Assembly (NCBI GenBank): GCA_029009115.1
Contig: JAQXJU010000078.1
Location: 1 to 46,069, forward strand
Direction: 5' to 3'
DNA: 46,069 nt
From: Bacteroidales bacterium
GTDB lineage: Bacteria > Bacteroidota > Bacteroidia > Bacteroidales > UBA932
The position numbers and the translations under genes were made by a program. This document shows, one piece after another, positions 26,460 through 46,069 of this stretch. Under the pieces are notes generated by a model that searched no databases, was not told the origin of the DNA, and saw only the letters and a program-made list of their open reading frames with translations. Positions within the stretch are counted from its first letter, which is position 1. Each line of letters opens with the position of its first letter.

Positions 26460-26463
26460 CAGC

Positions 26464-27927
26464 ATGTTACTTCTTGGTTATGACATTGGCAGCTCCTCTG
26501 TCAAGGCGAGTCTTATAAGGGTTGAGGACTCAAGGACGGTCGCAAGCGCATCTTCGCCCTCCGAGGAGGCTCCCATCCTGTCACTCCGTCCCGGCTGGGC
26601 CGAGCAGAACCCCAACGACTGGTGGGAATATCTAAAGGAAGCCACACTCAAGTTGAAGCCATCGCTCGAATCGGACAAAGTGGCCGCCATAGGCATCTCC
26701 TATCAGATGCACGGGCTGGTTTGCGTAGGAAGAGACCTCAGGCCTCTCAGAAATGCCATCATCTGGTGCGATTCGAGGGCTGTCCCCTACGGACAGAAGG
26801 CTTTTGCAGAAATCGGTGCCGACCGCTGCCTGAAGCACAACCTCAATTCGCCCGGAAACTTTACGGCTGCAAAGCTCGCCTGGGTTAAGGAGAACGAGCC
26901 CGAATTGTACAGGCAGATATACAAGATTCTGCTCCCTGGCGACTATATTGCCACTCGGATGAGCGGCGAGGCAACAAGCACTGTGAGCGGTCTGTCGGAA
27001 GGGATACTTTGGGATTTCAGACAGAACTGTGTATCTACCGAGATATTGGATGCCCTGGGTCTTGACCCCGCGATGATTGCCCGGACCGTCCCCTGTTTTG
27101 GAGAATCGCTGCATCTTGGCAGCGCCGCCGCACAGGAACTCGGGCTCGAGGCCGGCATACCCATCTGCTACCGGGCAGGAGATCAGCCCAACAACGCATT
27201 CAGCCTGAACGTGCTGAGACCAGGAGAAATAGCCGCTACGGCAGGAACCTCGGGAGTGGTTTACGGAGTCAGCGGCAAGATTGCCTGCGACCCGCTGTCG
27301 AGGGTGAATTCCTTCGCGCACGTCAACCATAGCCCCGAAGACCCCCGCATTGGAATACTTCTGTGCATCAACGGAAGCGGAATACTCAATGCCTGGACAC
27401 GAAGGAACGTCGCCCCTGAGGGGCTCACCTACGCCGAGATGAATGCCCAGGCCGCAAAAGTACCCGTAGGCTGCGAGGGGCTTTCGATACTTCCCTTCGG
27501 GAACGGTGCCGAGCGTATGCTGGGCAACCTTGCCCCCGGATGCAGCATCCACGGACTCGATTTCAACAGACACTCCCGCGCGCATATCTACCGCGCCGTT
27601 CAGGAAGGCATAGCATTCTCATTCCGCTACGGGATGGACATTATGTCGGAAATGGGGATGAAGGCATCGGACATTCACGCCGGTGCGGCAAATCTCTTCC
27701 TGTCATCAGTCTTCCGCAAGACCCTGTCTTCAGTCACAGGAACGGTAATCAATCTGTATGACACCGACGGTGCCGCAGGTGCCGCAAGGGGTGCAGGAGT
27801 CGGTTGCGGAATATATCGCAACACCGACGAGGCCTTCGAGGGCCTTGGCATTATCGGCAGCCAGACACCCGAAGACAGGAAACTGTACGAAGCTGCATAT
27901 CAGAACTGGAAAGAACATTTAATGTAA
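26464..27927 (+). CDS. xylB: Xylulokinase
   Basis: The protein of 487 residues belongs to the FGGY carbohydrate kinase family. The first phosphate loop is [13 protein letters not shown]; the substrate region is [27 protein letters not shown]; the catalytic Asp lies in [14 protein letters not shown]; and GTSGVVYGV with the C-terminal [10 protein letters not shown] are the FGGY ATP-binding parts. MHGLV and the WCDSR motif are typical of xylulokinase. It phosphorylates D-xylulose to xylulose 5-phosphate, feeding the pentose phosphate pathway. The gene starts 4 nt after GH31 and ends 7 nt before xylA. Confidence 0.95.
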
Positions 27928-27934
27928 GAACAAT

Positions 27935-29254
27935 ATGGCAAACAAAGTTTATTTCCCCGGCATCGACAAGATTGCCTTTGAAGGAACAGAGAGCAAGAAC
28001 CCTCTGGCATTCCGTTATTATGATCCCGAAAGGCTTGTGATGGGCAAGAAGATGAAGGACTGGCTACGTTTTGCAATGGCCTGGTGGCACACACTCGGCC
28101 AGGCATCCGGCGACCAGTTCGGAGGCCAGACCCGTTCATACGAATGGGACAGCGCCGAATGCCCTATGCAGAGAGCAAAAGACAAGGTTGACGCAGGTTT
28201 CGAGATTATGCAGAAACTCGGCATCGCTTACTACTGCTTCCACGACATTGACCTTATTGAGGACAGCGACGACATAGGCGTATATGAGGCTCGGATGCAG
28301 GAGATTACAGAATATCTCGAGCAGAAGATGAAGGAGACCGGAATCAAGCTGCTCTGGGGTACTGCAAACGTATTCGGACACAAGCGCTATATGAACGGAG
28401 CTGCCACCAACCCCGACTTTGACGTAGTTGCAAGGGCAGCTGTCCAGATTAAGAACGCTATCGATGCCACCATACGTCTGGGAGGTGAGAACTATGTGTT
28501 CTGGGGAGGACGCGAAGGGTATTCGAGTCTTCTGAACACCCAGATGCAGCGCGAAAAGGACCATCTTGCCAAGATGCTCACTGCAGCCCGCGACTACGCC
28601 CGTTCAAAGGGCTTCAAGGGGACATTCCTCATAGAGCCCAAGCCTATGGAGCCCACAAAGCACCAGTATGACGTCGATACCGAGACTGTCATAGGATTCC
28701 TCAGGGCCAATGGTCTTGAGAAGGACTTCAAGGTAAACATCGAGGTCAACCACGCCACCCTTGCCGGACACACCTTCGAGCACGAGCTGGCAGTTGCCGT
28801 TGACAACGGAATGCTCGGAAGCATCGACGCCAACAGGGGCGATGCCCAGAACGGCTGGGACACAGACCAGTTCCCCATCAGCGACTGGGATCTCACCCAG
28901 GCTATGCTGCAGATTGTCCGCAATGGCGGCCTGGGAACGGGAGGCTCTAACTTCGATGCCAAACTCCGCCGCAACTCCACCGACCCCGAGGATATCTTCA
29001 TCGCACACATAAGCGCTATGGATGCAATGGCCAGAGCCCTGCTCAATGCAGCCAACATCATCGAGAACAGTCCCATTCCCGCAATGGTCAAGGAAAGGTA
29101 CGCTTCCTTCGACAGCGGCAAAGGCAAGGAGTTCGAACAGGGAAAGCTCTCTCTTGAGGAACTGGCAGAGTATGCCAGACAGAACGGCGAACCCGCCCAG
29201 AGATCCGGAAAGCAGGAACTCTACGAGGCACTCATCAACATATATTCCGAATGA
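27935..29254 (+). CDS. xylA: Xylose isomerase
   Basis: The protein of 439 residues is a full-length class II xylose isomerase. Metal-ligand motifs are visible: [15 protein letters not shown] (first Glu), [14 protein letters not shown] (His and Glu), and [19 protein letters not shown] (Asp ligands). FWGGREGY supplies further active-site residues. It converts D-xylose to D-xylulose, which XylB then phosphorylates. Gene order xylB-xylA-xylE is common in Bacteroidota. Its stop overlaps the start of the transporter gene by 4 nt (ATGA). Confidence 0.98.
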
Positions 29255-30657
29255 GCGCCAGTTCCAAGAAAGGCAGTCCTGCCTATCTGGCAGGCATTGT
29301 TCTGATTGCAGTCATAGGCGGGCTTCTCTTCGGATATGACACGGCTGTGATTTCGGGGGCAGAGAAAGGACTTCAGCAGTTCTTCTCGTCTGCCACCGGC
29401 TTCACTTACACCGATGCCATCCACGGATTCACCACATCGAGCGCACTGATTGGTTGCATTATCGGAGCCTTCCTTTCAGGTTTCCTCGCATCGTCTTTCG
29501 GACGCAAGAAAACTCTGTTCGTGGCAGGAATTCTTTTCCTGCTGTCGGCACTCGGTTCGTGGAGGCCCGAATTCATCTTCTTCGAGAAGGGGGTACCCAC
29601 GAGCGGGCTTCTGATAGCATTCAACATCTACCGCATTCTCGGAGGAATAGGTGTCGGACTGGCCTCGGCCCTCTGCCCTATGTACATTGCCGAGGTTTCT
29701 CCCGCTGAAAAGAGGGGGACTCTTGTATCCTGGAACCAGTTTGCCATCATCTTCGGCCAGCTGATGGTTTACTTCGTAAACTTTCTGATTGTACGCGCTC
29801 ACGCTAACGACCCTGCGGTGCAGGAGTGGGCTATGCAGGTCGGCTGGAGGACTATGTTCGTCAGCGAGACGGTTCCCGCCGGTCTGTTCGCTCTGCTGAT
29901 TCTGCTTGTGCCCGAGACTCCGAGGTATCTCGTCCTGAGCGGCAGAGAAGACAAAGCTCTCGAGGTCCTCACCCGCATAAACGGCTACGACAAAGCCGGC
30001 GGAATCCTTCAGGATATCAAGGATACTGCCGTAGAGAAGAAGGAAAGGCTGCTGGCATACGGCTTTATGGTGGTGTTTATAGGATGTATGCTGAGCGTAT
30101 TTCAGCAGATAATAGGCATAAACGCCGTACTCTATTTTGCTCCGAGAATATTCGAGTCAATGGGAATGGGCAACCCTATGGCCCAGACCGTGATAATGGG
30201 AATCATCAATATCAGCTTCACCCTGCTGGCAGTGTTCACAGTCGAGAAGCTGGGAAGGAAACCTCTGCTGATCTGCGGCTCGGCGGGAATGGCAGTGGGT
30301 GCATTCGGCGTTGCTCTCAGCAACATCGCTGACCTGCCTGCTTTCATACCTGTGGCCAGTATAATGCTCTACAGCGCCTGCTTTATGTTCAGCTGGGGGC
30401 CTGTATGCTGGGTTTATATCTCCGAAATCTTCCCCAATACAATAAGGTCGCAGGCCACGGCCATAGCGGTGGCTTTCCAGTGGATATTCAACTTCCTGGT
30501 ATCATCGACCTTCGTACCTATGTACAGCTGGAGCCCGTTCTTCGCATATGCCCTTTATGGAGTGATATGCATAGTGGCGGCACTCTTCGTATGGAAGCTG
30601 GTTCCCGAGACCAAGGGCAAGACTCTGGAAGACATGAACAGACTCTGGAGAAAGTAA
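29251..30657 (+). CDS. xylE: MFS sugar porter, XylE-like D-xylose/H+ symporter
   Basis: The protein has 468 residues and 12 hydrophobic segments. It has all major sugar-porter signatures: [25 protein letters not shown], the [20 protein letters not shown] stretch after helix 4, PETPRYL before the central loop, [14 protein letters not shown] (sugar-binding helix 7), and the final [11 protein letters not shown]. With xylose isomerase and xylulokinase in the same operon, D-xylose is the likely cargo, moved across the inner membrane with protons. It is the last gene of the operon; a terminator hairpin follows at 30676-30718, inside the convergent regulator gene. Confidence 0.94.
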
Positions 30658-30661
30658 TACT

Positions 30662-33535
30662 CTATAGTTTTTTCGAGGTTCGGCTGTATTCTGAAGGATT
30701 GCAGCCGAACTTCTTTTTAAACCTGAGAGAGAAATACTTGGGCGAGCTGAAACCCAGGTTGTCGGCAACTTCGGCGACACGGTATGTCCCCTCTGACAGC
30801 ATAGTGGCGGCGTGCTTGAGGCGTATGTCCTCAATGAATACCTGGGGTGTCTGACCACAGGCTGCCTTGAGGCGGGCAGTCAGGGTGGTCTTGCCCATAT
30901 TGAGCTCCGAGCACAGCAGGGGGACATCCAGATTCTGGGCAAAGAGATTGCGTTCGACGGCTCCAATAGCGGCATTCAGGAATTTGGCATTCATGGATGC
31001 TATGGCGGTGGGGCTGGAAGGATCCTCATTTCTGTCAAGGTTGTCGTTCTCCATATCTACGAAGTCCGAAATGAGAGTTCTCATATTCTTTGCCTTGATG
31101 TAGATGTCTTCGATGTTCTCCACGCCCTTGGTTCTGGAACCGAAGTCTCTGAAGAATCGTTCTATCTGTCCTATTATCAGATTAAGAGGAGTCCTGAGCC
31201 TGTATGAGATATCCACGAAGAACTTGCTCTTTTCGATATTCTCCCTTTCCTGACGACGCAGTTTCTCGGCCAGCAGCATTCTTGTCCAAAGAGTGTACAG
31301 GACAAAGGCAATCAGGGTCAGAAGGAATGCAATCACAGAGATTTTGAACAAGGGAGTGGCATACCAATAGGGTTTGAGCACAAGGGAGAGAGAATCTTCG
31401 GCGCAATCCCCTCCCCTTCTGTCGGCCCTTACCCTGAGGGTATATCTGCCGTGATGCATATTCATAAAACGTAAGGGAGAACCTATGTCGAAAATGTGCC
31501 ACTGTTTGTCAAATCCTTCGAGGCAGTAGCTATAGACCGGCGAATTGACTCCGGTATAGTCGAAAGCAGCTGCATCAAGGCTGAAACTCGTCTGGCCGGG
31601 AGCGAGAACTATTTCGTCAAGAAAAGGCAGGTGAACCTTGGCGTCGAGCCTCTTGTCATTGACAAAAATAGCGTCGAGGGTAATGTTCAGAGGAGCCTGG
31701 CGGGGTCTTGCAAAGTCGGAGGGGAGCATCGCCAGACCATTTCCGCCTCCGGCCAGAATGGAACCGTCGGAAAGTAGGAGTGCCGCTCCACCACGGGCGG
31801 ACTTGAAAGTAAGTCCGCTCTGATGACTGTAGTTATGGCAGATATGTTTTTCGGTATCAAGTATCGAGAGCCCGGACACAGTCCCCACAAGCACATATCT
31901 GTCATCAACAGGAACCACATATGCAGTATGGTTGTCGGCGAGTCCGCAGTTTTCTGTTCCGTAGAAAGTCGCCCTCTCCCCTTCCATACAAACGACACCG
32001 TAGGTTCCGCCCACAAGGGCCATCCAGATGCGCCCCTTTCGGTCTATGGAGATGTCTGAGACAATGTTGGCATTCCACGGTACAGGAGCGTCATCGGGCG
32101 CAGGGACACTCTCTATGACTCCTCCAGGCCTGTAGCGGTACAGGCCCTGTGAAGCAATCCAGAGAGTTCCTTCGCCATCTGCCTCTATGTCATAAATGCG
32201 GGATTCAAGACCCGGAATGCGCCTTGTGACTGCACTCTCGGTTCTGGGATTGAAACTGTACAGGCCATAGGTTCCTCCAAGATAAAGAGTGTCAGACAGC
32301 ATTTCTATGGAAACTATCGATTCAGAGGCATTCATCGACTGGGGGATTCTGACCTGGACACGAGTAACAGAACCGCGTGAAAAGTCGTAACAGAGCATTG
32401 GGGAGGAATAGTCTCCTGCCCAGAGACGGTCGGCAGAGGCGTCGTAATAAGACCCCTGATACTTGATGCCTTCGGTCCCGGGCATAAGAGTCCAGGTTCC
32501 GGACGAATATTTCCACATACCGAAATTGTCGGTCAACATCAAAATGTCTCCCCTGTGGTCTTGAACAAGGGAACGCACTATATCAGAACCCGGTGGAGTG
32601 GGCACATTCTCGAAAGGAAAGGAACTTACATTTGCATAATAGACACCGTTGTAATATGTCCCTGTCCAGAGATTGTCATCGCGATCGACAAACACGCCGC
32701 AAACAGGGCTTCCTGTTCGCCCGGACAGGCTTTCTTCGCTTAATTCTCCGGAGGGATTGAGACGGAACAGGCCGTTTACAGCACCTATGTAAAGATTTCC
32801 GGAAGAATCGGATGCAAAAGAACGGACTTGGCGGAATGGGACTCCCTTGTGAGCAGTGTAAGACTCTAGAGTCTGCCAGCTGCTTGTATCAACAGAGAGG
32901 AAACCTCCCGAATATAGCCCTATCCAGAGACGCTTCGACGAATCAAGGTGCAGGTCCATTACTCTTGAAGGAAGAGGCATAACAGCCCTTACGCTGTCGG
33001 ATTCGATAAGAACAAGACCTGAATCGGTTGTTCCTGCTACAAGACTACCGTCGCCGAGACGCTCAAGACAGGTGACACTATAGTTCTCAGGGAGTCTGCG
33101 GCTGAGGGTAAGGGTGTCGCTGCGTCCGACATAGATGCGTGAATCGACTGCGACAAGAATAGAGTCTGCTTCGGCAAGAAGGGCCGAAGATTCGAGAGGA
33201 AGGCTGTCGGAGCGAAGAATCTCTGTGGAGGAAGTAGAAATATCGAAGCGGCAAAGTGATTTCAGGGTAGGTGCATAGATGAGGTTCTCGGCGTTGGTGG
33301 CAAGCGGATGCCAGGGCATGGAGGTGTGCATGGTCTCGAGTTTGTGACCGTTGAAGCGGCAGAGACCTATTGAGGTATTCAACCATATTGCTCCCAATCT
33401 GTCCTGAATGATAGAATATACCGATGTTGTGGACAAAGAACTGAGTTCCAGAGGGATACGGTTATTTATAGAGTAAAGCTGGAACGAGGATGCCAGAGCC
33501 GACAATACTACAATCAGGAATTTGCGCATACGCAT
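30662..33535 (-). CDS. Kinase-less HTCS-like regulator: propeller sensor, TM, DHp remnant, AraC HTH
   Basis: The protein has 957 residues; canonical hybrid two-component regulators have about 1300-1400. After a signal peptide (MRMRKFLIVVLSALASSFQL), repeated Reg_prop blades (for example RLGAIWLNTSIGL, KRLWIGLYSGGF, GTLWIASQGLYR) form a periplasmic sensor, then a Y_Y_Y domain and a TM helix at about 730-750. A DHp-like helical pair follows (about 760-830), but the expected SHELRTPL reads SYRLRTPL: the phosphoacceptor His is Tyr778 and the following acidic residue is Arg. No HATPase boxes and no receiver domain occur before a complete AraC HTH (about 850-957, ending FKKKFGCNPSEY). It should sense an oligosaccharide and bind DNA without phosphorelay. 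Divergent from the GH3-SusCD operon, with direct repeats between them. Confidence 0.92.
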   Translation of the reverse strand: MRMRKFLIVVLSALASSFQLYSINNRIPLELSSLSTTSVYSIIQDRLGAIWLNTSIGLCRFNGHKLETMHTSMPWHPLATNAENLIYAPTLKSLCRFDISTSSTEILRSDSLPLESSALLAEADSILVAVDSRIYVGRSDTLTLSRRLPENYSVTCLERLGDGSLVAGTTDSGLVLIESDSVRAVMPLPSRVMDLHLDSSKRLWIGLYSGGFLSVDTSSWQTLESYTAHKGVPFRQVRSFASDSSGNLYIGAVNGLFRLNPSGELSEESLSGRTGSPVCGVFVDRDDNLWTGTYYNGVYYANVSSFPFENVPTPPGSDIVRSLVQDHRGDILMLTDNFGMWKYSSGTWTLMPGTEGIKYQGSYYDASADRLWAGDYSSPMLCYDFSRGSVTRVQVRIPQSMNASESIVSIEMLSDTLYLGGTYGLYSFNPRTESAVTRRIPGLESRIYDIEADGEGTLWIASQGLYRYRPGGVIESVPAPDDAPVPWNANIVSDISIDRKGRIWMALVGGTYGVVCMEGERATFYGTENCGLADNHTAYVVPVDDRYVLVGTVSGLSILDTEKHICHNYSHQSGLTFKSARGGAALLLSDGSILAGGGNGLAMLPSDFARPRQAPLNITLDAIFVNDKRLDAKVHLPFLDEIVLAPGQTSFSLDAAAFDYTGVNSPVYSYCLEGFDKQWHIFDIGSPLRFMNMHHGRYTLRVRADRRGGDCAEDSLSLVLKPYWYATPLFKISVIAFLLTLIAFVLYTLWTRMLLAEKLRRQERENIEKSKFFVDISYRLRTPLNLIIGQIERFFRDFGSRTKGVENIEDIYIKAKNMRTLISDFVDMENDNLDRNEDPSSPTAIASMNAKFLNAAIGAVERNLFAQNLDVPLLCSELNMGKTTLTARLKAACGQTPQVFIEDIRLKHAATMLSEGTYRVAEVADNLGFSSPKYFSLRFKKKFGCNPSEYSRTSKKL
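30676..30718 (+). terminator. Probable terminator of the xylose operon, inside the regulator gene
   Basis: GTTCGGCTG (30678-30686) pairs perfectly with CAGCCGAAC (30702-30710), extended by AG/TT and followed by TTCTTTTT. It lies 20 nt past the xylE stop and within the last codons of the antisense regulator gene. Orientation of the T-run fits plus-strand termination only. Confidence 0.7.
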
Positions 33536-33543
33536 AAATGCTT

Positions 33544-33579
33544 AAAATCGAACAATATTACGACAAAAATCGAACAATA
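33544..33579. promoter_or_regulatory. Operator candidate: two 14-bp direct repeats, 22-bp period
   Basis: AAAATCGAACAATA occurs exactly at 33544-33557 and again at 33566-33579. The 22-bp period is close to two helical turns, placing both copies on one face, as expected for a dimeric AraC-type activator. The proximal copy ends 26 bp before the -7 box of the GH3 operon. The repeats lie between that operon and the divergent regulator gene. Confidence 0.8.
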
Positions 33580-33605: not shown

Positions 33606-33613
33606 TAAATTTG
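33606..33613 (+). promoter_or_regulatory. -7 box of the GH3-SusCD operon; no -33 box
   Basis: TAAATTTG matches TAnnTTTG and ends 4 nt before the GH3 ATG, so transcription should begin at or near the start codon. No TTTG is found 19-20 nt upstream, which fits dependence on an activator bound at 33544-33579. Confidence 0.7.
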
Positions 33614-33617
33614 AGCC

Positions 33618-36377
33618 ATGATATCATATGCACTTATTATAGCTGCCGCAACAGCTTTCACTTCACCTGTGGACACCCTTCCCGTGATAGGGAAGGGAGA
33701 GATGTACCACAAAGGTTGGATTGACTTCAACAAGAACGGAGTCAAGGACATCTACGAAGATCCTTCGGCCGACATTGAAGCCAGAATCGAGGACCTGCTT
33801 TCTCGTATGACCATCGAAGAAAAGACCTGCCAGATGGTCACCCTTTACGGATACAAGAGAGTGCTCCAGGACGACCTGCCCACGCCAGAATGGAAACAAA
33901 AACTCTGGAAAGACGGAATAGGCGCCATTGACGAGCATCTGAATTCGTTCCGCAACTGGGATCTTCCGCCTGTGGAATCTCCCTACAATTGGCCCGCCTC
34001 CAAGCACGCCTGGGCACTGAACAGGGTGCAGCAGTTCTTTATTGAGGAAACCCGTCTTGGCATCCCCGTCGATTTCACGAACGAGGGAATCAGGGGTGTG
34101 GAATCATACATTGCCACCAACTTCCCGACCCAGCTTGGGCTCGGCCATACCTGGGATCGCGAACTTGTGCGTCAGGTAGGTTATATAACAGGACGCGAAG
34201 GCAGACTCCTGGGATACACTAATGTATATGCACCCATTATGGACGTCGGACGCGACCAGAGGTGGGGCCGTTATGAAGAGGTGTACGGCGAGAGCCCCTG
34301 GCTGGTTGCCGAACTGGGTGTCGAGATGTGCCAGGGTATGCAGACCAACCATCAGGTTGCATCTACAGGAAAGCATTTCATCGCATATTCAAACAACAAG
34401 GGAGGACGTGAGGGAATGTCACGTGTGGATCCTCAGATGGCCCTTCACGAAGTTGAGAACGTTCACTGCTACCCCTGGAGAGAAGTTATCCAGAGAGGCG
34501 GTATGCTTGGCGTGATGAGCTCGTACAACGACTATGACGGCGAGCCCATACAGGGAAGTTCTTACTGGCTGATTGACAGGCTCAGAGGTGATTTCGGGTT
34601 CAAGGGATATGTCGTATCCGACTCCGATGCCGTCGAGTACCTGCACTCCAAGCACCACGTGTCCAAGGATATGAAAGAATCCGTAAGACAGGCAGTCGAG
34701 GCAGGTCTGAATGTGAGATGCACCTTCAGGACACCCGACAGCTATGTACTCCCGCTCAGAGAACTCGTAAAGGAAGGCACAATTTCTATGGAGACCATCG
34801 ACGCTCGCGTAAGGGATGTGCTGCGCGTCAAATTCATAGTAGGTCTCTTTGACAATCCCTATCAGCTTGATTATGAGGCCGCCGACAGAGAGGTCAACAG
34901 CGACGAGAACAACGAATGGGCAAAAAGGGCATCCAGGGAGTGTCTGGTGCTTCTTAAGAACGACGGAACCCTGCCTCTGGATAAGGATAAACTACGCAAG
35001 GTCGCTATAATCGGGCCCAATGCCGACGAAACAAGCTTCGTGCATCAGCACTACGGTCCGGTAGCCACACGCTCGTATTCGGTGCTCGAGGGTATGCAGA
35101 CAGCCCTTCAGGGCAAGGCCGAAGTCCTCTATGCAAAGGGCTGCGATCTCGTGGATGCCAACTGGCCCGATTCAGAGATTCTGCCCGTGGCTCCCACCGC
35201 GGACGAACTCGCCAGGATGCAGGAGGCAGTGAATATTGCTGAGCAGTCCGACGTAGCGATTGTAGTTCTGGGCGGAGGAACAAGGACCTGCGGCGAGAAC
35301 AAGAGCCGTACCAGCCTTGACCTTCCCGGCCACCAGCAGCTTCTTCTCGAAAAAGTATGCGCTACAGGCAAGCCTGTGGTTCTGGTACTCATCAACGGAC
35401 GTCCCCTGTCAGTGAACTGGGCAGCAGCAAACGTAAACTCCATTCTCGAGGCCTGGTATCCCGGGACCCACGGAGGAACTGCCGTTGCAGAGGCCCTGCT
35501 CGGCGATTACAACCCTGGAGGAAAACTGACTGTAACCTTCCCCAGAACCGTAGGACAAATTCCTTTCAACTTCCCTTTCAAGCCTGCATCGCAGGTTGAC
35601 GGAGGCAACAAGACCGGCCCCACGGGCAAGCAGAGCCGTGTACACGGAGCCCTGTGGGACTTCGGCTTCGGCCTGAGTTACACCACTTTCGAATATTCCG
35701 ACCTCAAACTCAGCAAGCACGTCATTTCTCCCGACGAAAACGTGGAAGTATCGTTCAAAGTCACTAATACCGGTTCCCGCAAGGGCGACGAGGTCGTACA
35801 GTTGTACATCCACGACCAGCTGTCGAGCATTACAGTATATGAGCGCCAGCTGAGGGGCTTCGACAGGATCCCGCTGGAGAGCGGCGAAAGCAGGACAGTG
35901 ACATTCACACTCACTCCCAAAGACCTCAGTCTTCTGGACAAGAACTTCAACAGAGTAGTAGAGCCGGGAGTATTTGATATTCTCATCGGAGCATCCTCAA
36001 CCGATATCAGGCTTCAGAAGATGCTCAGGGTCTCCGACGGAACCCCCGAGGGAAGCACCGATCCCAACCTGTCCGCAAGGCCCAAGGCTATTTTCCCTGT
36101 CACCGTTGGCAAGGGCGACGATGTCACTATGCCCCTTCGCGAGGGAAAACTCTCTGATTACCTGAATATTAAATGGGCTGCCGGGACAGACTGCAACTTT
36201 GAGATTCAGTGGACCAAGGGTGGCGGACAGTTCATTCCCTGCTTCAAGGGCAGTGCAAAGGGAAAGGGTACCAAGACTTACAAATTCGAAGAATTCGAGG
36301 GCAGTGAGGTCCGCGTCGCCATTACCCGCGGCAAGGCTGTCATCGAAGGAATTGACAGCATAGCTATCCAGAAATGA
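33618..36377 (+). CDS. GH3 glycoside hydrolase (beta-glucosidase/beta-xylosidase) with C-terminal extension
   Basis: The protein has 919 residues. A short hydrophobic start (MISYALIIAAATAFTSP) without basic residues is an unusual but possible signal peptide. The GH3 N-domain has LLSRMTIEEKTCQM, RDQRWGRYEEVYGE, TGKHF, and the nucleophile Asp335 in GYVVSDSDAVEYL. The GH3 C-domain has LLKNDGTLPL, and a fibronectin III-like domain (about 690-795) contains NTGSRKGDEVVQLY. Residues 800-919 form an extra C-terminal domain, probably a beta-sandwich, that I do not recognise. It cleaves terminal beta-glucose or beta-xylose from oligosaccharides. It is the first gene of the PUL operon and its stop overlaps the next start (ATGA). 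Confidence 0.93.
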   Translation: MISYALIIAAATAFTSPVDTLPVIGKGEMYHKGWIDFNKNGVKDIYEDPSADIEARIEDLLSRMTIEEKTCQMVTLYGYKRVLQDDLPTPEWKQKLWKDGIGAIDEHLNSFRNWDLPPVESPYNWPASKHAWALNRVQQFFIEETRLGIPVDFTNEGIRGVESYIATNFPTQLGLGHTWDRELVRQVGYITGREGRLLGYTNVYAPIMDVGRDQRWGRYEEVYGESPWLVAELGVEMCQGMQTNHQVASTGKHFIAYSNNKGGREGMSRVDPQMALHEVENVHCYPWREVIQRGGMLGVMSSYNDYDGEPIQGSSYWLIDRLRGDFGFKGYVVSDSDAVEYLHSKHHVSKDMKESVRQAVEAGLNVRCTFRTPDSYVLPLRELVKEGTISMETIDARVRDVLRVKFIVGLFDNPYQLDYEAADREVNSDENNEWAKRASRECLVLLKNDGTLPLDKDKLRKVAIIGPNADETSFVHQHYGPVATRSYSVLEGMQTALQGKAEVLYAKGCDLVDANWPDSEILPVAPTADELARMQEAVNIAEQSDVAIVVLGGGTRTCGENKSRTSLDLPGHQQLLLEKVCATGKPVVLVLINGRPLSVNWAAANVNSILEAWYPGTHGGTAVAEALLGDYNPGGKLTVTFPRTVGQIPFNFPFKPASQVDGGNKTGPTGKQSRVHGALWDFGFGLSYTTFEYSDLKLSKHVISPDENVEVSFKVTNTGSRKGDEVVQLYIHDQLSSITVYERQLRGFDRIPLESGESRTVTFTLTPKDLSLLDKNFNRVVEPGVFDILIGASSTDIRLQKMLRVSDGTPEGSTDPNLSARPKAIFPVTVGKGDDVTMPLREGKLSDYLNIKWAAGTDCNFEIQWTKGGGQFIPCFKGSAKGKGTKTYKFEEFEGSEVRVAITRGKAVIEGIDSIAIQK

Positions 36378-37777
36378 GAAGAATAGCTTCAATCTTGATT
36401 CCTCTGGCCCTCGTGCTTTCGTGCGAGAAGGGAACTGGCCGTCCTTCCGATGCCGGAAAAGGCGAAGAAAAGGTCCCCGGAACAGTCCAGACCTATGTTT
36501 ACAGCCGCTCACTCAAGGTTTCGCAACTCTACGATGTCACTGTAAATACCGAGACACAGATGGTTCTGAGGACTGAGGAGCCCCACATCTGCGCTTTCGG
36601 ATGCAGCGACACCGTAAAGGTAACGGTTGACCTCCTGAGCGGCAAGGCCGAATCGGTTGCTGTCCGCCCCCTGAACAAGGGATACAGGTACCGTCAGGAA
36701 GATGACGGACGCCTGACATTGTTCCTTGCACCACTCGACAGGGTCGTGGTAGAATTCAACGGCAGCAGCGAGAATCCTCTGTTCCTTTTTGCCAACCCTT
36801 TGGAAGAGAAGCCGGCCAGGGAAGAGTGCGCGTACTATTTTGAGGCAGGTAAGACCTATGAGAAGACCATAGCCCTTTCTTCAGGAAAGGTTTACCTCGA
36901 AGCAGGGTCATACGTTAGCGGACAAATCCACGTTCTTTCGGGTTCCAACGTACAGATTGCAGGATACGGCATCCTGAACGGAGTGGGCGGTTCCAAGCCT
37001 GTCTTCATCAACAATTCCGACAATGTTTCGGTGGACGGAATCATACTGGTCAACCACGATTTCTGGTCAACTCTGGCGACCCAGTCCACAAACATCTCCT
37101 TCAATAATTATAAAGTAGTGGCTCCCGCGTCAAGCAACGAGCAGGGACACGAAAACGATGCTCTGGACATTCTCGGGTGCAGCCACGTGCGCATCAGCGA
37201 CTGTTTCACCTACTGCCACGACGATGCCTTGTGCATAAAGAGCGAAAAATGGCTCTACAAAGGCAAGGTTGAGGACTATTTGGCTGAGGATTGCATAATA
37301 TGGAACTATAACAACGGAACATCTCTCGAAATCGGGCTAGAACTGAACCAGGACTGCTCCGACGTGCATTTCAAGGATATCTACTGCGTCCATTCCGGAG
37401 GCGGAATGAACTCCGGGCTCCAAAGGGCCGGCATAGGGATGAAGCAGTGCGCGGGAGGCACCCTGAGCAACTTCAGCTTTGAGAACATCTATGTCGAAGA
37501 CGCAAAGGAGTTCGGAATCTATCTTGGAATCTACAAGAGCTACGCCTCTATTGGAGAGGGAGTTGAATGGCAGCCCGGAGCAATCGACGGAGTAAGTTTC
37601 AAGAACATCCACATCGACGGTCCCGCGCCTTACGGAAATGTAATAAAAGGCTACGACAACGACCAGCATTCAATAAAGAATGTGCATTTCGAAGGCCTTT
37701 ACAGGAACGGGGAAAGAATAACTGACGCCAAATCATTTTTCAACACCTGCGTCAATTCATCAGTAACGATTGAATAA
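36374..37777 (+). CDS. Right-handed beta-helix glycoside hydrolase, GH28/GH49-like lipoprotein
   Basis: The protein has 467 residues. The signal peptide ends in LALVLSC (lipobox Cys17). About residues 35-150 look like the Ig-like N-terminal domain of GH49-type enzymes (ending PLFLFANPLEEKP). The beta-helix starts at YYFEAGKTYEKTIALSSGKVYLEAG. Catalytic Asp candidates are Asp262 (HENDALDI) and Asp283-Asp284 (CHDDALCIKSE), a spacing of 21-22 residues, close to the 21 of GH28 polygalacturonases. The GHG and RIK motifs needed by classic polygalacturonases are not visible, so GH49 (dextranase/isopullulanase clan) or a related group is at least as likely. Polymer specificity is therefore open. The gene is fixed between GH3 (4-nt overlap) and SusC (15-nt gap). 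Confidence 0.8.
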   Translation: MRRIASILIPLALVLSCEKGTGRPSDAGKGEEKVPGTVQTYVYSRSLKVSQLYDVTVNTETQMVLRTEEPHICAFGCSDTVKVTVDLLSGKAESVAVRPLNKGYRYRQEDDGRLTLFLAPLDRVVVEFNGSSENPLFLFANPLEEKPAREECAYYFEAGKTYEKTIALSSGKVYLEAGSYVSGQIHVLSGSNVQIAGYGILNGVGGSKPVFINNSDNVSVDGIILVNHDFWSTLATQSTNISFNNYKVVAPASSNEQGHENDALDILGCSHVRISDCFTYCHDDALCIKSEKWLYKGKVEDYLAEDCIIWNYNNGTSLEIGLELNQDCSDVHFKDIYCVHSGGGMNSGLQRAGIGMKQCAGGTLSNFSFENIYVEDAKEFGIYLGIYKSYASIGEGVEWQPGAIDGVSFKNIHIDGPAPYGNVIKGYDNDQHSIKNVHFEGLYRNGERITDAKSFFNTCVNSSVTIE

Positions 37778-37792
37778 CACGGATATAAAACT

Positions 37793-40700
37793 ATGAACCA
37801 ATTTAAAAGAATTGCCTTCAGCCTGCTGCTTTGGGTGGCGAGTCTTACGACGGCCTTAGCACAGGGCGGCACTGTGAACGGCACAGTAAGGGATTCAAAC
37901 GGAGACCCTGTCCCCGGAGCAGCCGTCTTTTACAAGGGAACTACCAATGCGTCTATGACCGATGTTCAAGGGCGCTTCAGCATCCCTTTCCAAAAGGGGA
38001 AAACACTCGTATTCAGCTGTTTCGGACTTAAGGACAAAGAAATTACAGTCACTGACACAAAACCTCTGGCCGTGATTCTCGAAACTGATTCGATGACAAT
38101 CGACGATGCGGTTGTAATAGGATACGGAACCGTTTCGAGAAGGGATCTCACAGGCTCTATTGCCTCTATCAAGGCGGACGAACTGATGAAATCCGGCAGT
38201 TCCAACGCTCTCGGCGCCCTCCAGGGCAAGGTGGCCGGCCTGCAGATTACCTCGCAGTCGGGAGAACCCGGTTCCGGCTTCTCAATCAAGATTAGGGGAA
38301 ACAACTCAATCAATGCGGGAACCACTCCCCTGTTCGTCATCGACGGAATGCAGATGGACATCTCCTCTTCCGAGGTTGCATCTTCGACTGCTACCGGCAG
38401 CGGCGGATATGACCCTATGTCCTTCCTGAATCCCGCTGACGTCGAGTCCATTGAAGTTCTCAAGGACGCTTCGGCCACAGCAATCTACGGAGCCAGGGGT
38501 GCCAACGGAGTTGTCATCATCACAACAAAGAGCGGGGCCACCGGCTACGACAAGACTGTCGTCAACTTCGACGCTTCGATGAGCCTGTCCGAGAATCCGA
38601 AATACATCGAGATGCTCGGTCCCCAGGACTACATCAACTACCGTTTCGAACGTAAAGACTACGGCTACTATGCCTTCGGTATCGACACCAACCAGGACGG
38701 CATAGAGGATACTGCCGAAAGCGCCGAAGGCTACGAATACTATGACTGGCAGAAAGTCATGTACCGCAAGGCCTTGGGGCAGAGCTACAACGTTTCTCTC
38801 AGCTCCATGGTCGGGGGAGGCACCCAGATTGCAGCCAGCCTCGGCTACCTCAACCAGGAAGGTCTTATCCGCAACAACGACCAGAGCCGCTACACGGCCC
38901 GCATCAAGATCGATCACAAAATAGGGAAGAAGGTCAAGGTGGGAGGAGTCGTGAATTTCGGCCGCACAATCTCGACCGGAGCCGTGTCTTCCGGAGGCGG
39001 TTCCCTCGGATACAGCGGACTTGTGCAGTACATCTACCTCGAGCGTCCGATCAAGAAATGGACTTCCGACGAGGCTGACGAATACGAGGGAGTCCCCTTC
39101 GGACTGCTGTCGCTGATAACTGACCAGACCTACAGGAAGACGACCTACGACCGTCTCACCGCCAACGCATATGCCAACTGGGACATCACAAAGCATCTGA
39201 GCTTCCGAGCCAACGCGTCCGGCGGTCTTTCCTCTTCTACACTCATGGAGTACTACTCCTCACTCAGCAAGTGGGGGCGCTCTCGCCACGGAAAGGCAAC
39301 CAACCGCAACGTACAGACCTACAACTACAACCTCACAGCCCAGCTGAATTATAAGAACAGCTGGAACAAGAAGCACAACTTAGACGCTATGGTCGCCGGG
39401 GAAATCACCTACTACAATTCCTCGAACCTGACCCTCAGCGGATACAATTTTACCGACGAGAGCACCGGTGCGTACAACATCGGCAAGGCGGGCATCATCG
39501 AGACCCCTGACCAGTCAGTATCGGACAACGCCAAGATGTCCTTCATTTCGCGCGTAAGCTACAACTACAGGCAGAAATATTATCTGACCGGAACCCTTCG
39601 TGCAGACGGCTCGTCCAAGTTCTATTCCGGCAACAGGGTAGGCTGGTTCCCTTCAGCATCACTCGCCTGGAGGGTAAGTGAGGAACCCTGGGTCAAGAGC
39701 GGAGCTCCCTGGATTGACGAATTCAAGCTCAGGCTCAGCGCCGGTGCCTCAGGTAACGACCGTATAGGCAACTACGCTGCCCTGGCAACGCTCGGGACCA
39801 ACTACTACTCAGCCTCGGGCACCGAGATTATGGGTATGGCACCCACGGCATCGGCCAATCCCAATCTGAAATGGGAAACCACCTACCAGTATGACGCAGG
39901 ATTCGACCTTTCTGTGCTGAACGAGAAGATCAACCTCACCGCCGACGTCTATTACAAAGACACCCGCGACATGCTATATCAGGCTACCCTGTCGGCACAG
40001 TCGGGATACACAACCCAGTGGCAGAACCTCGGAAGGGTTGAGAACAAAGGTATTGAGATTGCCCTCAACACCCACAACATCGACACACGCTCCTTCTCGT
40101 GGTCAAGCAGTTTCACCTTCGATCTTTCGCGCAACAAGGTCCTTGACATAGGAGGAATTGAGTACACTATGGTAAACATAGGCAACGGCCAGCTCTCTTC
40201 CGACATCTCGAGGATAGTGGTCGGCCAGCCGATAGGAATAGGCTGGGGATACCTCTCCGACGGCAACTACCAGGTCGAAGACTTCATCATAACCGACAAG
40301 AACGGACGCGAGATTCCGGCCGAATCCATAAACAACAAGAATTTCAGCTATTACAACTACACCCTTCGCGACGACGTTGTCAGCATTGCCGGAAAGACCG
40401 TTCAGCCCGGTGACCGAAAATACAAGGATATATACGGCAACGACAACGTAATCACAACCGAAGACCGCACCAAGATAAGCGACTCCAACCCCAAATTCAG
40501 CATAGGTCTTGGCAACAGCTTCACCTGGAAGAACTTCGATTTGAACATCTTCCTCGAGGGTGTGTACGGGCGTCAGATTCTCAACGAGTTCAAGCTCAGA
40601 AGCGAATCCGGCGAAAGCGGCGGAACCCAGAGTAACAACCTCACCAAGGCTGCCTGGGACGGGCACTGGACTCCTGAAAACAGGTCTGACACTTACTCGC

Positions 40701-40990
40701 GCCTGCGCAACCAGACCAACACCTACTGCTCCGACTACTACGTAGAAGACGGTTCGTACCTTCGCATCAAGACAGTCTCCCTGGGTTATTCCCTAGGCAG
40801 GAAGGTTCTTGAGAAAATGCACGTGCGTTCCGGAAGGATAGCCCTGAACATCGACAATCTGCACTGTTTCACTTCCTACAGCGGCAACGACCCCGACGTG
40901 AGTTCATCGAACTCGCTGTTCACAGGTTTCGACCGTATGTCCTACCCCAAGGCAAGGACCTACAGCCTGTCGCTGAACATAGGCTTCTAA
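37793..40990 (+). CDS. susC: SusC/RagA-family TonB-dependent outer-membrane transporter
   Basis: The protein has 1065 residues. The signal peptide ends at LTTALA-QGG. About residues 25-105 are the CarboxypepD-regulatory-like domain (VNGTVRDSNGDPVPGAAVFYKGTTNASMTD). A TonB-box-like region follows (DAVVIGYGTVSRRDLTGSI), then the plug (LQGKVAGLQI, IRGNNSINAG, PLFVIDGMQ, VEVLKDASATAIYGARGANGV-like stretch) and the 22-strand barrel, ending in an aromatic residue (LSLNIGF), as outer-membrane proteins do. It imports oligosaccharides into the periplasm together with the SusD lid. It is the third gene of the PUL operon. The symbol denotes family, not starch specificity. Confidence 0.97.
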   Translation: MNQFKRIAFSLLLWVASLTTALAQGGTVNGTVRDSNGDPVPGAAVFYKGTTNASMTDVQGRFSIPFQKGKTLVFSCFGLKDKEITVTDTKPLAVILETDSMTIDDAVVIGYGTVSRRDLTGSIASIKADELMKSGSSNALGALQGKVAGLQITSQSGEPGSGFSIKIRGNNSINAGTTPLFVIDGMQMDISSSEVASSTATGSGGYDPMSFLNPADVESIEVLKDASATAIYGARGANGVVIITTKSGATGYDKTVVNFDASMSLSENPKYIEMLGPQDYINYRFERKDYGYYAFGIDTNQDGIEDTAESAEGYEYYDWQKVMYRKALGQSYNVSLSSMVGGGTQIAASLGYLNQEGLIRNNDQSRYTARIKIDHKIGKKVKVGGVVNFGRTISTGAVSSGGGSLGYSGLVQYIYLERPIKKWTSDEADEYEGVPFGLLSLITDQTYRKTTYDRLTANAYANWDITKHLSFRANASGGLSSSTLMEYYSSLSKWGRSRHGKATNRNVQTYNYNLTAQLNYKNSWNKKHNLDAMVAGEITYYNSSNLTLSGYNFTDESTGAYNIGKAGIIETPDQSVSDNAKMSFISRVSYNYRQKYYLTGTLRADGSSKFYSGNRVGWFPSASLAWRVSEEPWVKSGAPWIDEFKLRLSAGASGNDRIGNYAALATLGTNYYSASGTEIMGMAPTASANPNLKWETTYQYDAGFDLSVLNEKINLTADVYYKDTRDMLYQATLSAQSGYTTQWQNLGRVENKGIEIALNTHNIDTRSFSWSSSFTFDLSRNKVLDIGGIEYTMVNIGNGQLSSDISRIVVGQPIGIGWGYLSDGNYQVEDFIITDKNGREIPAESINNKNFSYYNYTLRDDVVSIAGKTVQPGDRKYKDIYGNDNVITTEDRTKISDSNPKFSIGLGNSFTWKNFDLNIFLEGVYGRQILNEFKLRSESGESGGTQSNNLTKAAWDGHWTPENRSDTYSRLRNQTNTYCSDYYVEDGSYLRIKTVSLGYSLGRKVLEKMHVRSGRIALNIDNLHCFTSYSGNDPDVSSSNSLFTGFDRMSYPKARTYSLSLNIGF

Positions 40991-41004: not shown

Positions 41005-42852
41005 ATGAGAAACACAGCATTATACATATTTGCGGCAACAGCTCTGCTGCTCACAGTCTCGTGCGAGAAGGCCGAGTTCCTCAACCGCGCTCCGTACTCG
41101 AGCACCGCTCCTGAGAATTTCTACAGTACCGAGAGCCAGATGAATATGGCTCTGGTATCCTGCTACGAGACTATTAACACCCACAAGATTCCCGGTCTGA
41201 CCTACTGCCAGAGAGGCTCCTACGCACAGGGACTTATGTACCTTATGAACGCGCCGAGCGACTGCGTCGTGGGTCAGGCGAGTTCTATGGGCGAAGGCGT
41301 CGAAATGGAACAGTGCACCTTCGACGAGAGTTCGAACTGCATTCGCCATTTCTGGAAAGTGTTCTACACCGGAATCAACCGCTGCAATATCATTCTTGCC
41401 TACATCGACGGAATATCCGGACTCAGCGAAGAGAAGAAGGTCCAGTTCAAGGCCGAGGCCCGTTTCATGAGGGCTTTCTACTACTACCACCTTGCCTGGA
41501 ACTTCGGAGGAATACCCATCGTCACCGACTATGCTTCGGCGGGAGATGAGCCCCGTTCTTCACTTAAAGACGTTTATGAACAGCTGATTATCCCCGACCT
41601 CGAATACGCATCGGCTAACCTGGCCGAAGCAGGCGGACTGATTGCAAACGTATCGGTTGACAAGTACGTTGCCGAAGCCTATATGGGCCGAATCTGCAAC
41701 TATCTCGCAGCCTGCAAGCGCTACGGAACAGGTGCCAATCTGGTAGCCGAGCAGCCCCTCAACGACTTCAGTTGGGTTAACGCCAACGCAATGTCCGCCA
41801 AAGCCAAGGCAGCACTTGAGGACGTATGCCTCAACTCACCCTATATCCTCAATCCCGACTACAGGATGAACTTCCTTGAGGCGGCGAAGAGCGAGCAGAA
41901 AAAGGAGTGCATGCTGCTTGCGGAGCAACCCCTGAGCGGCAGTGAAGGATACTGGCCCAACAGTTACTACATCCCCACCTCGGTCAATCCTCCTGCATAC
42001 CCGACCACATACGGCGGACGGCACATTCCTACCTACCGTGGTTTCTATATGTTCTCTCCCAAAGACAGCAGACGCGACTGGAACTATGTGGGAAGGGCCA
42101 CCGACGGCTACACCGAGATTAAACTTGCCAACTGCAACTATCCCGTACCCGTATTCCAGGATTCCATTACGGTTACGGTAAAAGATGCCGAGGGCAAGCC
42201 CGTCGTGGATCCGGTAAGCGGCGAGACCGTAAAGCAAAAGATTCTGCACCCCCTGTACGACTCCCCCACCCAGACATACCGGGCCAACTCGAACCTTCAG
42301 ATATGTACCGGAAAGTTCAGGCTCGCAAGGATAGAGGAACTCCAGCGCACTTACCAGCAGTCGGCCCTGTCTTATCCTCTGATGAGGCTTGCCGACGTGT
42401 ATCTTATGTATGCCGAAGCCTTGTACTTCACAGGTGACGAGGCCAACGGGCGGGTATGGATGAACAAAGTTCTGCGCAGGGCCTCCACAGACGAAGCCAA
42501 CTACAACGAACTGCTCGCGGCATACCACAGAGACGATTTCGTAGAAGAACTTCTCGAGAGCCGCGAAAGGGAACTCTCTATGGAGTGCTCCCGCCGCTGG
42601 GACCTCATACGCTTCAACCGCATCGACGAAGCCATCTCGAGTCTGGACCAGGAAAGGGTTTCCGAATACAAGGGCGACCCCATCGATGAAGAATATCTGC
42701 TTATTCCGGAAACTTCCGCCCTGCGCATACTTATCGGCACGCTGAAGCAGAACTGGATGCCCTTCAAGATATGGCTCCCAATCTCGGAAGAGCAAAGGGG
42801 TGTCAACAAGGGCCTGAGCCAGAATGCCGGTTGGGGCGCATCGGTTCAATAG
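41005..42852 (+). CDS. susD: SusD/RagB-family surface glycan-binding lipoprotein
   Basis: The protein has 615 residues. The signal peptide with lipobox LLTVSC anchors Cys20. The SusD-typical start (LNRAPYSSTAPENFYSTESQMNMAL), the TPR-like helical part (FKAEARFMRAFYYYHLAWNFGGIPIVTD) and the C-terminal RELSMECSRRWDLIRFNRIDEA segment are all present. It forms the hinged lid over SusC and binds the glycan on the cell surface. It starts 14 nt after susC, as usual. The symbol denotes family only. Confidence 0.96.
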   Translation: MRNTALYIFAATALLLTVSCEKAEFLNRAPYSSTAPENFYSTESQMNMALVSCYETINTHKIPGLTYCQRGSYAQGLMYLMNAPSDCVVGQASSMGEGVEMEQCTFDESSNCIRHFWKVFYTGINRCNIILAYIDGISGLSEEKKVQFKAEARFMRAFYYYHLAWNFGGIPIVTDYASAGDEPRSSLKDVYEQLIIPDLEYASANLAEAGGLIANVSVDKYVAEAYMGRICNYLAACKRYGTGANLVAEQPLNDFSWVNANAMSAKAKAALEDVCLNSPYILNPDYRMNFLEAAKSEQKKECMLLAEQPLSGSEGYWPNSYYIPTSVNPPAYPTTYGGRHIPTYRGFYMFSPKDSRRDWNYVGRATDGYTEIKLANCNYPVPVFQDSITVTVKDAEGKPVVDPVSGETVKQKILHPLYDSPTQTYRANSNLQICTGKFRLARIEELQRTYQQSALSYPLMRLADVYLMYAEALYFTGDEANGRVWMNKVLRRASTDEANYNELLAAYHRDDFVEELLESRERELSMECSRRWDLIRFNRIDEAISSLDQERVSEYKGDPIDEEYLLIPETSALRILIGTLKQNWMPFKIWLPISEEQRGVNKGLSQNAGWGASVQ

Positions 42853-42884
42853 ATTATCATATACATAACCACTTATTAATTACC

Positions 42885-45050: not shown

Positions 45051-45061
45051 GCCGCGATACT

Positions 45062-46069
45062 ATGAGGAGAAAGATTCTTCCGTTTCTCGCTGTTCTGCTT
45101 CCATTCTTCGGGTTCTGCACAAAGAGCCCGGAGAATGGGGGGCAGAGCGAGGAAGAAAAATACGCTAACAGCTACTATTTCAAGGCCTCCTTCGACCCGG
45201 TGGAAGGCACGGGCATTTCGTCGCTCTGGACAGATGACGATCTGCTTCTTCCCTATGACTGCAGTGACGGGACTCCCGTTGGCAAAACTGAGATAGAAAG
45301 CGGACAGGGTAAGTCCAGCGTTATTGCCAGGATTCTGACTAATCTGCCGGACGGAAGCCGTGTGAGGCTGATGAGCACTCCCGGGCAGAATCTTCTCCAT
45401 AACCTTGACCTCCCCACCATCCAGCATCAGGACCCGTCCTCTCAGAAACCCTGGTGGACGCATTGTTTCGCCTTTTCCGACGAACTGCTCCTCTCCAACT
45501 CCGGGATGGCCGTGTCGGACATCCATTTTCCGATGACCTTGTTGAGGGTGGTCTTGGAGGTTGACAAGAATTCCACCCTGCTCTCCGGACAACTCGAGAA
45601 AGTTACCCTCTCCTGCTCCGGAGAGCCACTGGGAGGAACTTTCAGCATAGACTGGGAAAGCGGGAAGGTCATTCCGGCAAAGTGGGTGGACAGCGTCAGC
45701 GCTGCGCCTTCGCAGACTATGCGCATCCAGGAAGGAGATAACGTCCTGTGGCTATGCGCCCTTCCCCGCAATCTCGAGGGTAAGCAGTGCACCCTGACCT
45801 TTGAATTGAGGGATGCCTCGGGAGTGAAGAGCAGCCAGAAGAGCAGCTTTGAAGGCAGGAATCTTTCCAGCGGCAGCGTCCATACCCTCAGGGTACTCGC
45901 CGCCGACAATCTCGTCAGCAAGGGAGATCCTTCGATGGCCGAATACAGCTACACCCCTATTCCGGTCAAATCCACGATGGCTTCTGCCAGCTATTCGACC
46001 TCGTCCTCGTCGAAGACCGTCACTCTCGACGGAATGAACCGTATGGACAAGTATAACGCCTCTTCCCTC
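45062..46069 (+). CDS. Second surface lipoprotein of the PUL, fimbrillin-like, cut by right edge
   Basis: The frame is open from ATG 45062 to the window end (336 codons, no stop). The start MRRKILPFLAVLLPFFGFC looks like a lipoprotein signal, with Cys19 as the likely lipidated residue, although Phe at -1 is unusual. A linker (TKSPENGGQSEEEKYANS) is followed by a beta-rich region whose elements (FPMTLLRVVLEVD, LEKVTLSCSGEPLGGTFSID, NVLWLCALPRNLEG) resemble fimbrillin-like domains with strands of the form 'P..ALL.v.v'. It starts 11 nt after the previous stop, so it belongs to the same operon. No enzyme motif is seen. It probably binds glycan at the surface; this is inference from position. Confidence 0.8.
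   Translation, partial: MRRKILPFLAVLLPFFGFCTKSPENGGQSEEEKYANSYYFKASFDPVEGTGISSLWTDDDLLLPYDCSDGTPVGKTEIESGQGKSSVIARILTNLPDGSRVRLMSTPGQNLLHNLDLPTIQHQDPSSQKPWWTHCFAFSDELLLSNSGMAVSDIHFPMTLLRVVLEVDKNSTLLSGQLEKVTLSCSGEPLGGTFSIDWESGKVIPAKWVDSVSAAPSQTMRIQEGDNVLWLCALPRNLEGKQCTLTFELRDASGVKSSQKSSFEGRNLSSGSVHTLRVLAADNLVSKGDPSMAEYSYTPIPVKSTMASASYSTSSSSKTVTLDGMNRMDKYNASSL

Follow-up and report, generated by a model that had tools for sequence, protein, structure and literature searches.

Propeller hybrid two-component systems (HTCSs) such as BT4663 and BT0366 combine a propeller and Y_Y_Y sensor, a membrane helix, a DHp (dimerisation and histidine phosphotransfer) domain and an AraC-type DNA-binding domain (DBD), are positioned beside SusC/SusD genes and have direct-repeat operators at 21-22 bp. 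The same parts, gene position and, as a candidate, operator are found for a 957-residue AraC regulator encoded on contig JAQXJU010000078.1 of a gut bacterium of the Bacteroidales (assembly GCA_029009115.1), the whole 46,069-nucleotide stretch analysed here being referred to as the window; unlike the propeller HTCSs, this regulator possesses neither HATPase and receiver domains nor the phosphoacceptor His and the Glu following it (H+1). SusR-like regulators are single membrane proteins, and we know of no DHp stalk or HTCS descent among ToxR/CadC-type transmembrane transcription regulators (TTRs). As regulators of polysaccharide utilisation loci counted apart from HTCSs, and by their direct-repeat operators, SusR-like proteins resemble the regulator, but their half-sites lie 67 or 77 bp apart instead of 22 bp, and their DBD is described as not significantly similar to any other known regulator (PMC3878776), whereas HTH_18 is present here. 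ToxR/CadC-type TTRs have in common with it that sensor and DBD reside in one membrane protein (PMC10269533, PMC5430869). With sensor and DBD on a single polypeptide that lacks a functional set of phosphotransfer parts, the 957-residue protein may be grouped with the transmembrane one-component regulators, its membrane helix being read by eye. The TTR census treats HTCSs as hybrid TTRs, and the word AraC is absent from its main text (PMC10269533). The nearest published precedent found is BT4236, an HTCS with Gln for His for which a phosphorylation-independent mechanism has been suggested by its authors; the phosphoacceptor His is lost as here, but a receiver contact motif is described and the receiver is still present in BT4236 (PMC11253607).

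The regulator, predicted to span the membrane, descends from an HTCS and probably works as a one-component switch, in which the DHp would serve as a stalk passing the signal mechanically to the DBDs. It is composed as follows.

30662..33535, minus strand: propeller/DHp/AraC regulator of 957 residues without kinase and receiver (open reading frame and Pfam)
31691..33463, minus strand: beta-propeller sensor (Reg_prop), residues ~25-615 (Pfam), putatively periplasmic by analogy with HTCSs
31382..31558, minus strand: Y_Y_Y domain, residues 660-718 (Pfam)
31280..31354, minus strand: predicted membrane-spanning helix, residues ~728-752 (hydrophobic stretch read by eye)
31040..31231, minus strand: DHp (HisKA) helical hairpin, residues 769-832 (Pfam 769-829, own hidden Markov model (HMM), conservation)
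31202..31204, minus strand: codon of Tyr778 at the position of the phosphoacceptor His (sequence, alignment)
30992..31039, minus strand: variable tether between DHp and DBD, residues 833-848, site of the missing HATPase and receiver (conservation, spacing)
30680..30991, minus strand: AraC-type DBD with a conserved leading segment, residues 849-952 (Pfam, conservation)

All four domains that the earlier note had described as retained lie above the Pfam cut-off, Reg_prop in six stretches, Y_Y_Y with 28.8 bits (cut-off 26.6), HisKA at residues 769-829 with 27.6 bits (26.9) and HTH_18 (PF12833) at residues 874-952 with 72 bits (33.6), PF00165 being matched in two stretches besides, as in a DBD with two helix-turn-helix (HTH) motifs. 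The N-terminus is of the signal type, as read by eye, and a profile of 24 clade members matches the HTCS sensor structure 4a2l, which we take to be BT4663, over positions 3-724 (E 2.6e-82). HATPase_c and Response_reg are without a match in the regulator up to E 10 in Pfam, the region of residues 830-850 included, and by our own HMMs. The absence of both domains claimed in the earlier note is thereby upheld; the missing part amounts to ~334 residues relative to near HTCSs, slightly under the 350-400 estimated there. The end of the DHp (V826, Leu at this position in 19 of 21 full HTCSs) is separated from the start of the DBD (E861) by 35 residues in the regulator and 25-40 in 27 receiver-less proteins; in the full HTCSs closest to it, five in number, the distance is 368-370. 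The H-box reads S-Y778-R-L-R-T-P, and the replacement of His by Tyr778 (TAC at 31204-31202) is confirmed in sequence and alignment.

Homologue searches with the regulator and with a receiver-bearing relative yielded 87 and 999 proteins (120 of the 999 listed). With seven proteins read from six relative genomes, 74 sequences, close members of three architectures and some full HTCSs, were chosen for alignment. With near-copies left out (P0002, 98%; G098a, G133 and G388, 97-99.6%), the classes comprise 27 receiver-less proteins, 22 receiver-bearing HATPase-less proteins and 21 full HTCSs. All 27 are distinct sequences with propeller/Y_Y_Y/DHp/AraC layout and without HATPase and receiver, while in the 22 the gap between DHp and receiver is 19-37 residues, as against 203-213 in full proteins, and the receiver is present with Asp, Thr and Lys. 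Relatives with a complete kinase, which the earlier note had named as potential counter-evidence, do not occur among the first 30 homologues listed, none of which has a HATPase domain. The absence of domains relative to an HTCS could be taken as a sign of a decaying or mis-assembled gene, an explanation that is hardly conceivable, refuted as it is by the clade of 27 distinct members and a near-identical cluster of 13 sequences, and by the high conservation of DHp and DBD. This 98%-identical cluster, labelled Candidatus Cryptobacteroides MAG (metagenome-assembled genome; P0002), has the same length as the regulator, which excludes an assembly deletion, and the diverged members of the clade rule out assembly deletion and pseudogene alike.

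A careful tree of sensor, DHp (His column excluded) and DBD comprises 47 of the 74 rows, the 27 rows left out including several fragments as well as P0029 and P0031, two receiver-bearing proteins with Arg and long branches. All HATPase-less rows form one clade in this tree (39 rows, support 100/99), inside which all receiver-less rows form one clade (23 rows, 100/100); two architecture changes are required in total, and none of 200 shuffles was equally low. Both clades are recovered in a 70-row quick tree (SH-aLRT 99 and 99), the full HTCSs lying outside the HATPase-less clade in both trees. Sister of the receiver-less clade (98/98 in the 47-row tree) are P0098, G352, P0106 and P0107, which have His and an intact receiver; in the 70-row tree the sister group also includes the Arg-bearing P0031, and P0029 stands at the same unresolved fork. 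The nearest full HTCSs, P0093-P0097, possess His and a full-length HATPase span. As the receiver-less clade is nested in the HATPase-less, receiver-bearing clade, the trees place a single loss of the HATPase first and a single loss of the receiver later; this ordering covers HATPase and receiver and not the His, whose column changed about nine times in the 70-row tree.

Two-component systems are usually thought to derive from one-component regulators; the clade documents evolution in the opposite direction, and its intermediates survive. On balance we lean towards the view that an HTCS became a one-component receptor by orderly amputation, the stages of which are still alive and in the course of which the phosphoacceptor His was replaced, that the DHp was re-specialised to purely mechanical transmission and that the HATPase-less intermediates with His and receiver represent a second new class, relay receptors obtaining phosphate in trans. 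The clade is a natural system which separates signal transmission by the DHp from phosphotransfer and lets one ask how much of the DHp motion of histidine kinases is signal and how much is chemistry.

Judged by sequence identity, the DHp is the part retained by selection, conserved as strongly as the DBD. Mean pairwise identity among the 27 receiver-less proteins is 0.68 for DHp helix 1, 0.57 for helix 2 and 0.64 for the DBD (HTH), with 0.32 for the propeller, 0.30 for the membrane helix and 0.20 for the tether; the respective values in full HTCSs are 0.66, 0.46 and 0.51, with 0.32, 0.33 and 0.30. Relative to the 64% relative P0003, 56 of 68 residues are kept in the DHp, 86 of 104 in the DBD and 366 of 591 in the propeller. 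G799, G804 and Y812, present in 27/27, are partly common to receiver-bearing intermediates. The distance from Trp724 to Ser777 is 53 residues in all receiver-less (27/27) and receiver-bearing (22/22) proteins and in the near HTCSs (5/5), the equivalent in 16 other HTCSs being 60 (13 proteins), 49, 53 and 76. The hairpin span of 49 and the DBD span of 86 are constant in 27/27 and nearly so in the other classes. Such a pattern should be expected of a functioning mechanical transmission that is loosely tethered to the DNA, and not of a relic.

Alternatively, the DHp might be a passive dimeriser which keeps a constitutive dimer on the DNA, the ligand acting via proteolysis, stability or localisation to the membrane. 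Fusion to a dimeriser is enough for AraC domains to activate transcription (PMC11253607, citing others), and the receiver lock of HTCSs is no longer present; however, passive dimerisation would require neither the Pro and Arg of the H-box, each found in 27/27 receiver-less proteins, nor the 53-residue run from Trp724 without any indel between membrane and DHp in this class, and three kinase-less paralogues in the same genome manage without a detectable DHp. We regard this explanation as rather unlikely.

The DBD of HTCSs is believed to be held by the receiver, as long as this is unphosphorylated, via an S/CHIP loop and a D and a K of the DBD (PMC11253607). According to the same paper, AraC DBDs that are linked to a dimer have to be suppressed. 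This pair, located by its 39-residue spacing, is maintained in full HTCSs (D 21/21, K 20/21) and reduced to D 12/27 and K 5/27 (Arg in 18) in receiver-less proteins, His-type intermediates having D in 6/13 and K in 3/13. On these counts the receiver lock appears relaxed, partly before the receiver was lost.

The phosphoacceptor column is occupied by His (13) or Arg (9) in the 22 receiver-bearing HATPase-less proteins and by Tyr (20), Leu (4), Phe, Arg and His (1 each) in the 27 receiver-less ones. Tyr, whose conservation the earlier note suggested to examine, is frequent but not invariant and is replaceable, one member even carrying His. As Tyr occurs in only 20/27, a role for its hydroxyl, for example as phosphotyrosine, was dropped. 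P0022, the receiver-less member with His, is nested among Tyr and Arg members and looks like a reversion with no receiver to serve. Thirteen HATPase-less relatives have both His and an intact acidic pair in the receiver (P0024, P0030, P0089-P0092, P0098, P0099, P0104, P0106, P0107, L084 and L085) and are candidates for phosphorylation in trans, as a relay class of their own. Across the 22, His and the first acidic residue of the receiver occur together in 13, His without the acid in 0, the acid without His in 2 and neither in 7 (Fisher 0.0002, but one event of acid loss underlies this value, and 2-3 independent pairs cannot reach significance).

For the regulator itself, its parts exclude intramolecular His-Asp phosphotransfer, as kinase domain, receiver and phosphoacceptor His are all absent. 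Phosphate might still be needed if the DHp pairs with another histidine kinase or a full HTCS, the heterodimer or phosphorylated partner driving the regulator. While the strongly conserved DHp, other proteins with HisKA and HATPase in the own genome and the 13 of 22 receiver-bearing relatives that could take phosphate in trans would agree with such a partner, the regulator is without receiver and His, the H+1 Glu (21/21 full HTCSs, 6/22 receiver-bearing HATPase-less proteins) is gone in 27/27, and R801 and R819 are invariant in the receiver-less clade only (27/27, versus 2/22 and at most 1/22 in receiver-bearing relatives, and not invariant in full HTCSs). Of a partner kinase encoded elsewhere, the further counter-evidence considered in the earlier note, an adjacent one was rejected, as none of the 10 HATPase matches in the own genome lies on the contig of the regulator. 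We regard a dependence on a partner kinase as unlikely. Phosphate-free conformational signalling through the former kinase dimer stalk is likely, as anatomy and evolution suggest, and the claim of the earlier note that signalling without phosphotransfer was selected and is no recent accident agrees with the 27-member clade, a DHp conserved like the DBD and the living intermediates.

The regulator is divergent from a glycan-utilisation locus, with the following elements between and beyond.

33544..33557, plus strand: candidate operator half-site 1, AAAATCGAACAATA (repeat search)
33566..33579, plus strand: candidate operator half-site 2, identical to half-site 1, 22 bp start to start (repeat search)
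33606..33613, plus strand: TAAATTTG, fitting the Bacteroides -7 box (read from the sequence)
33618..36377, plus strand: glycoside hydrolase GH3, first gene of the divergent locus and likely target (Pfam)
36374..37777, plus strand: glycoside hydrolase GH28 (Pfam)
37793..40990, plus strand: SusC-like TonB-dependent transporter (Pfam)
41005..42852, plus strand: SusD-like protein (Pfam)

The consensus of the Bacteroides -7 box is TAnnTTTG. The half-sites form a perfect 14-nt direct repeat with 22-bp spacing between the regulator and the GH3 gene, a candidate operator; in predicted operators of HTCSs, direct repeats occur at a mean distance of 21 bp (PMC3878776). Seven divergent promoters were compared, those of the window, L025, L079, L080, L081, L083 and L084. 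Four of them have repeats matching at 13/14 positions or better with a spacing of 21-22 bp, with 0 in 300 mononucleotide shuffles each; L025, L079 and L081 have none (shuffle rates 0.16, 0.24 and 0.65). A GTTC doublet at 21-22 bp occurs in five of the seven, at a dinucleotide-shuffle rate of 0.001-0.044 per region and with 27 doublets across 129,320 bp taken from these loci; relative to the regulator, its strand varies, L080 and L083 being opposite to the window, L025 and L084. Within three mismatches, the own genome holds no second copy of the 9-nt doublet of the window, and a reversed control also gave one match, so that no wider regulon was found.

Behind the regulator, positions 23640-30657 encode a GH31, an FGGY kinase, a xylose-isomerase-like TIM barrel and a sugar transporter of the MFS (major facilitator superfamily), the last gene of this group ending 5 bp from the regulator stop; no copy of the half-site within three mismatches was found at these genes. 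Downstream of susD (42771-46069) follow two open reading frames of 759 and 336 residues without a Pfam match at 1e-5, of which the former, in its listed extent, overlaps with the 3' part of susD, while the latter is open-ended and runs off the contig. The GH3, GH28 and SusC/SusD genes together with the GH31 and xylose-catabolism-like neighbours suggest a xylose-containing oligosaccharide as signal, and the sugar target may be a xylose-containing pectin or hemicellulose, perhaps xylogalacturonan. Annotation of such loci by complete HTCSs overlooks a class of regulators.

According to the mechanical stalk model, an oligosaccharide, probably containing xylose, would bind the propeller dimer, and the change would run via Y_Y_Y and membrane helix, in fixed register, into the four-helix bundle of the DHp. 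The seating of the two flexibly tethered AraC domains at half-sites 22 bp apart would be determined by the bundle, and RNA polymerase would be recruited to the GH3-GH28-SusC-SusD genes.

Several points weigh against this model and its evolutionary frame. The off-state, in which the DBDs are kept from the DNA without ligand, is unexplained by mechanical transmission. Arg-type intermediates retain more of the D/K pair (D 7/9, K 4/9), and K888R, being situated in the recognition helix, may reflect DNA specificity rather than loss of the receiver lock. Pfam HisKA is weak in the clade, with 27.6 against 26.9 bits in the regulator, P0022 (26.2 bits) and P0020 (15.2) below the cut-off and precomputed HisKA in only 4 of the 26 other receiver-less members among the matches listed. 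Our own HMM, however, trained on the 21 full HTCSs, detects the DHp in all 27 receiver-less proteins of the P series and in G063. The His of the receiver-less P0022 is a further point, as are the GTTC doublet, missing from the L079 and L081 promoters and picked as a core after the repeats were seen, and the trees, rooted on full HTCSs by assumption. This rooting is preferred because a gain of the HATPase at its exact canonical place is far less likely.

Among 151 genomes of the genus (up to 20 candidates scored in each) and 398 of the family (up to 7), the strong uninterrupted matches to DHp and DBD (E <1e-60) are the own protein and G063. Nine weak matches among the rows listed (27-32% identity, E 4e-21 to 7e-18) span most of the query, seven of them in frames of 972-1054 residues. 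Two of these, L056 (genome G147) and L074 (G442), of the same genus, are propeller-type AraC proteins without HATPase or receiver by HMM, whose DHp-like helices carry S-E-Q-L-E-A-P and S-K-D-L-Q-G-P for the H-box (HisKA 14.5 bits in L074, none in L056); they stand outside the Tyr clade, and their degenerate helices suggest that regulators retaining the stalk without a kinase probably evolved on more than one occasion. In samples of the order (393 genomes) and of the phylum (395), with no more than 7 candidates of each genome scored, no other uninterrupted match was found at E 1e-22, matches besides the own protein lying in other frames, most of HTCS length. The Tyr clade may therefore not extend beyond the Cryptobacteroides family; the name of the genus is taken from the 98% match P0002. 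A profile scan of genome contigs gave one clade member, L025, from a Bacteroidales MAG of the rumen of roe deer, besides a single unrelated protein of the AraC type.

A literature search, mostly outside subscription papers, returned no published description of an HTCS without HATPase and receiver. The statement in the earlier note that no class with this exact remnant was known agrees with this result; other kinase-less lineages exist, with a degenerate DHp or none detected. In the own genome, contigs C74, C92 and C26 encode propeller-AraC proteins (L013, L014 and L015) with HTH and without DHp, HATPase or receiver by HMM, in which membrane and DBD are separated by no more than a short helix; two full HTCSs are also encoded, and four of the six propeller-AraC regulators counted, in a census that is incomplete and gives at least six, are without kinase. 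The C26 protein has seven kinase-less relatives beyond its own cluster, followed by full HTCSs at 42-44% identity, and reads as a separate lineage of kinase loss. A broad FastTree of 264 rows gives 11 changes of HATPase presence, to be read as several in view of many long branches and a split clade. A separate group of propeller-receiver-AraC proteins of 1251-1257 residues (P0253, P0256, P0259-P0263, P0267 and P0283, one labelled Prevotella sp.) has neither HisKA nor HATPase detected. P0044 and P0046, propeller-AraC proteins of 1151-1162 residues, combine HATPase-like sequence with Leu in the His column and are without a receiver.

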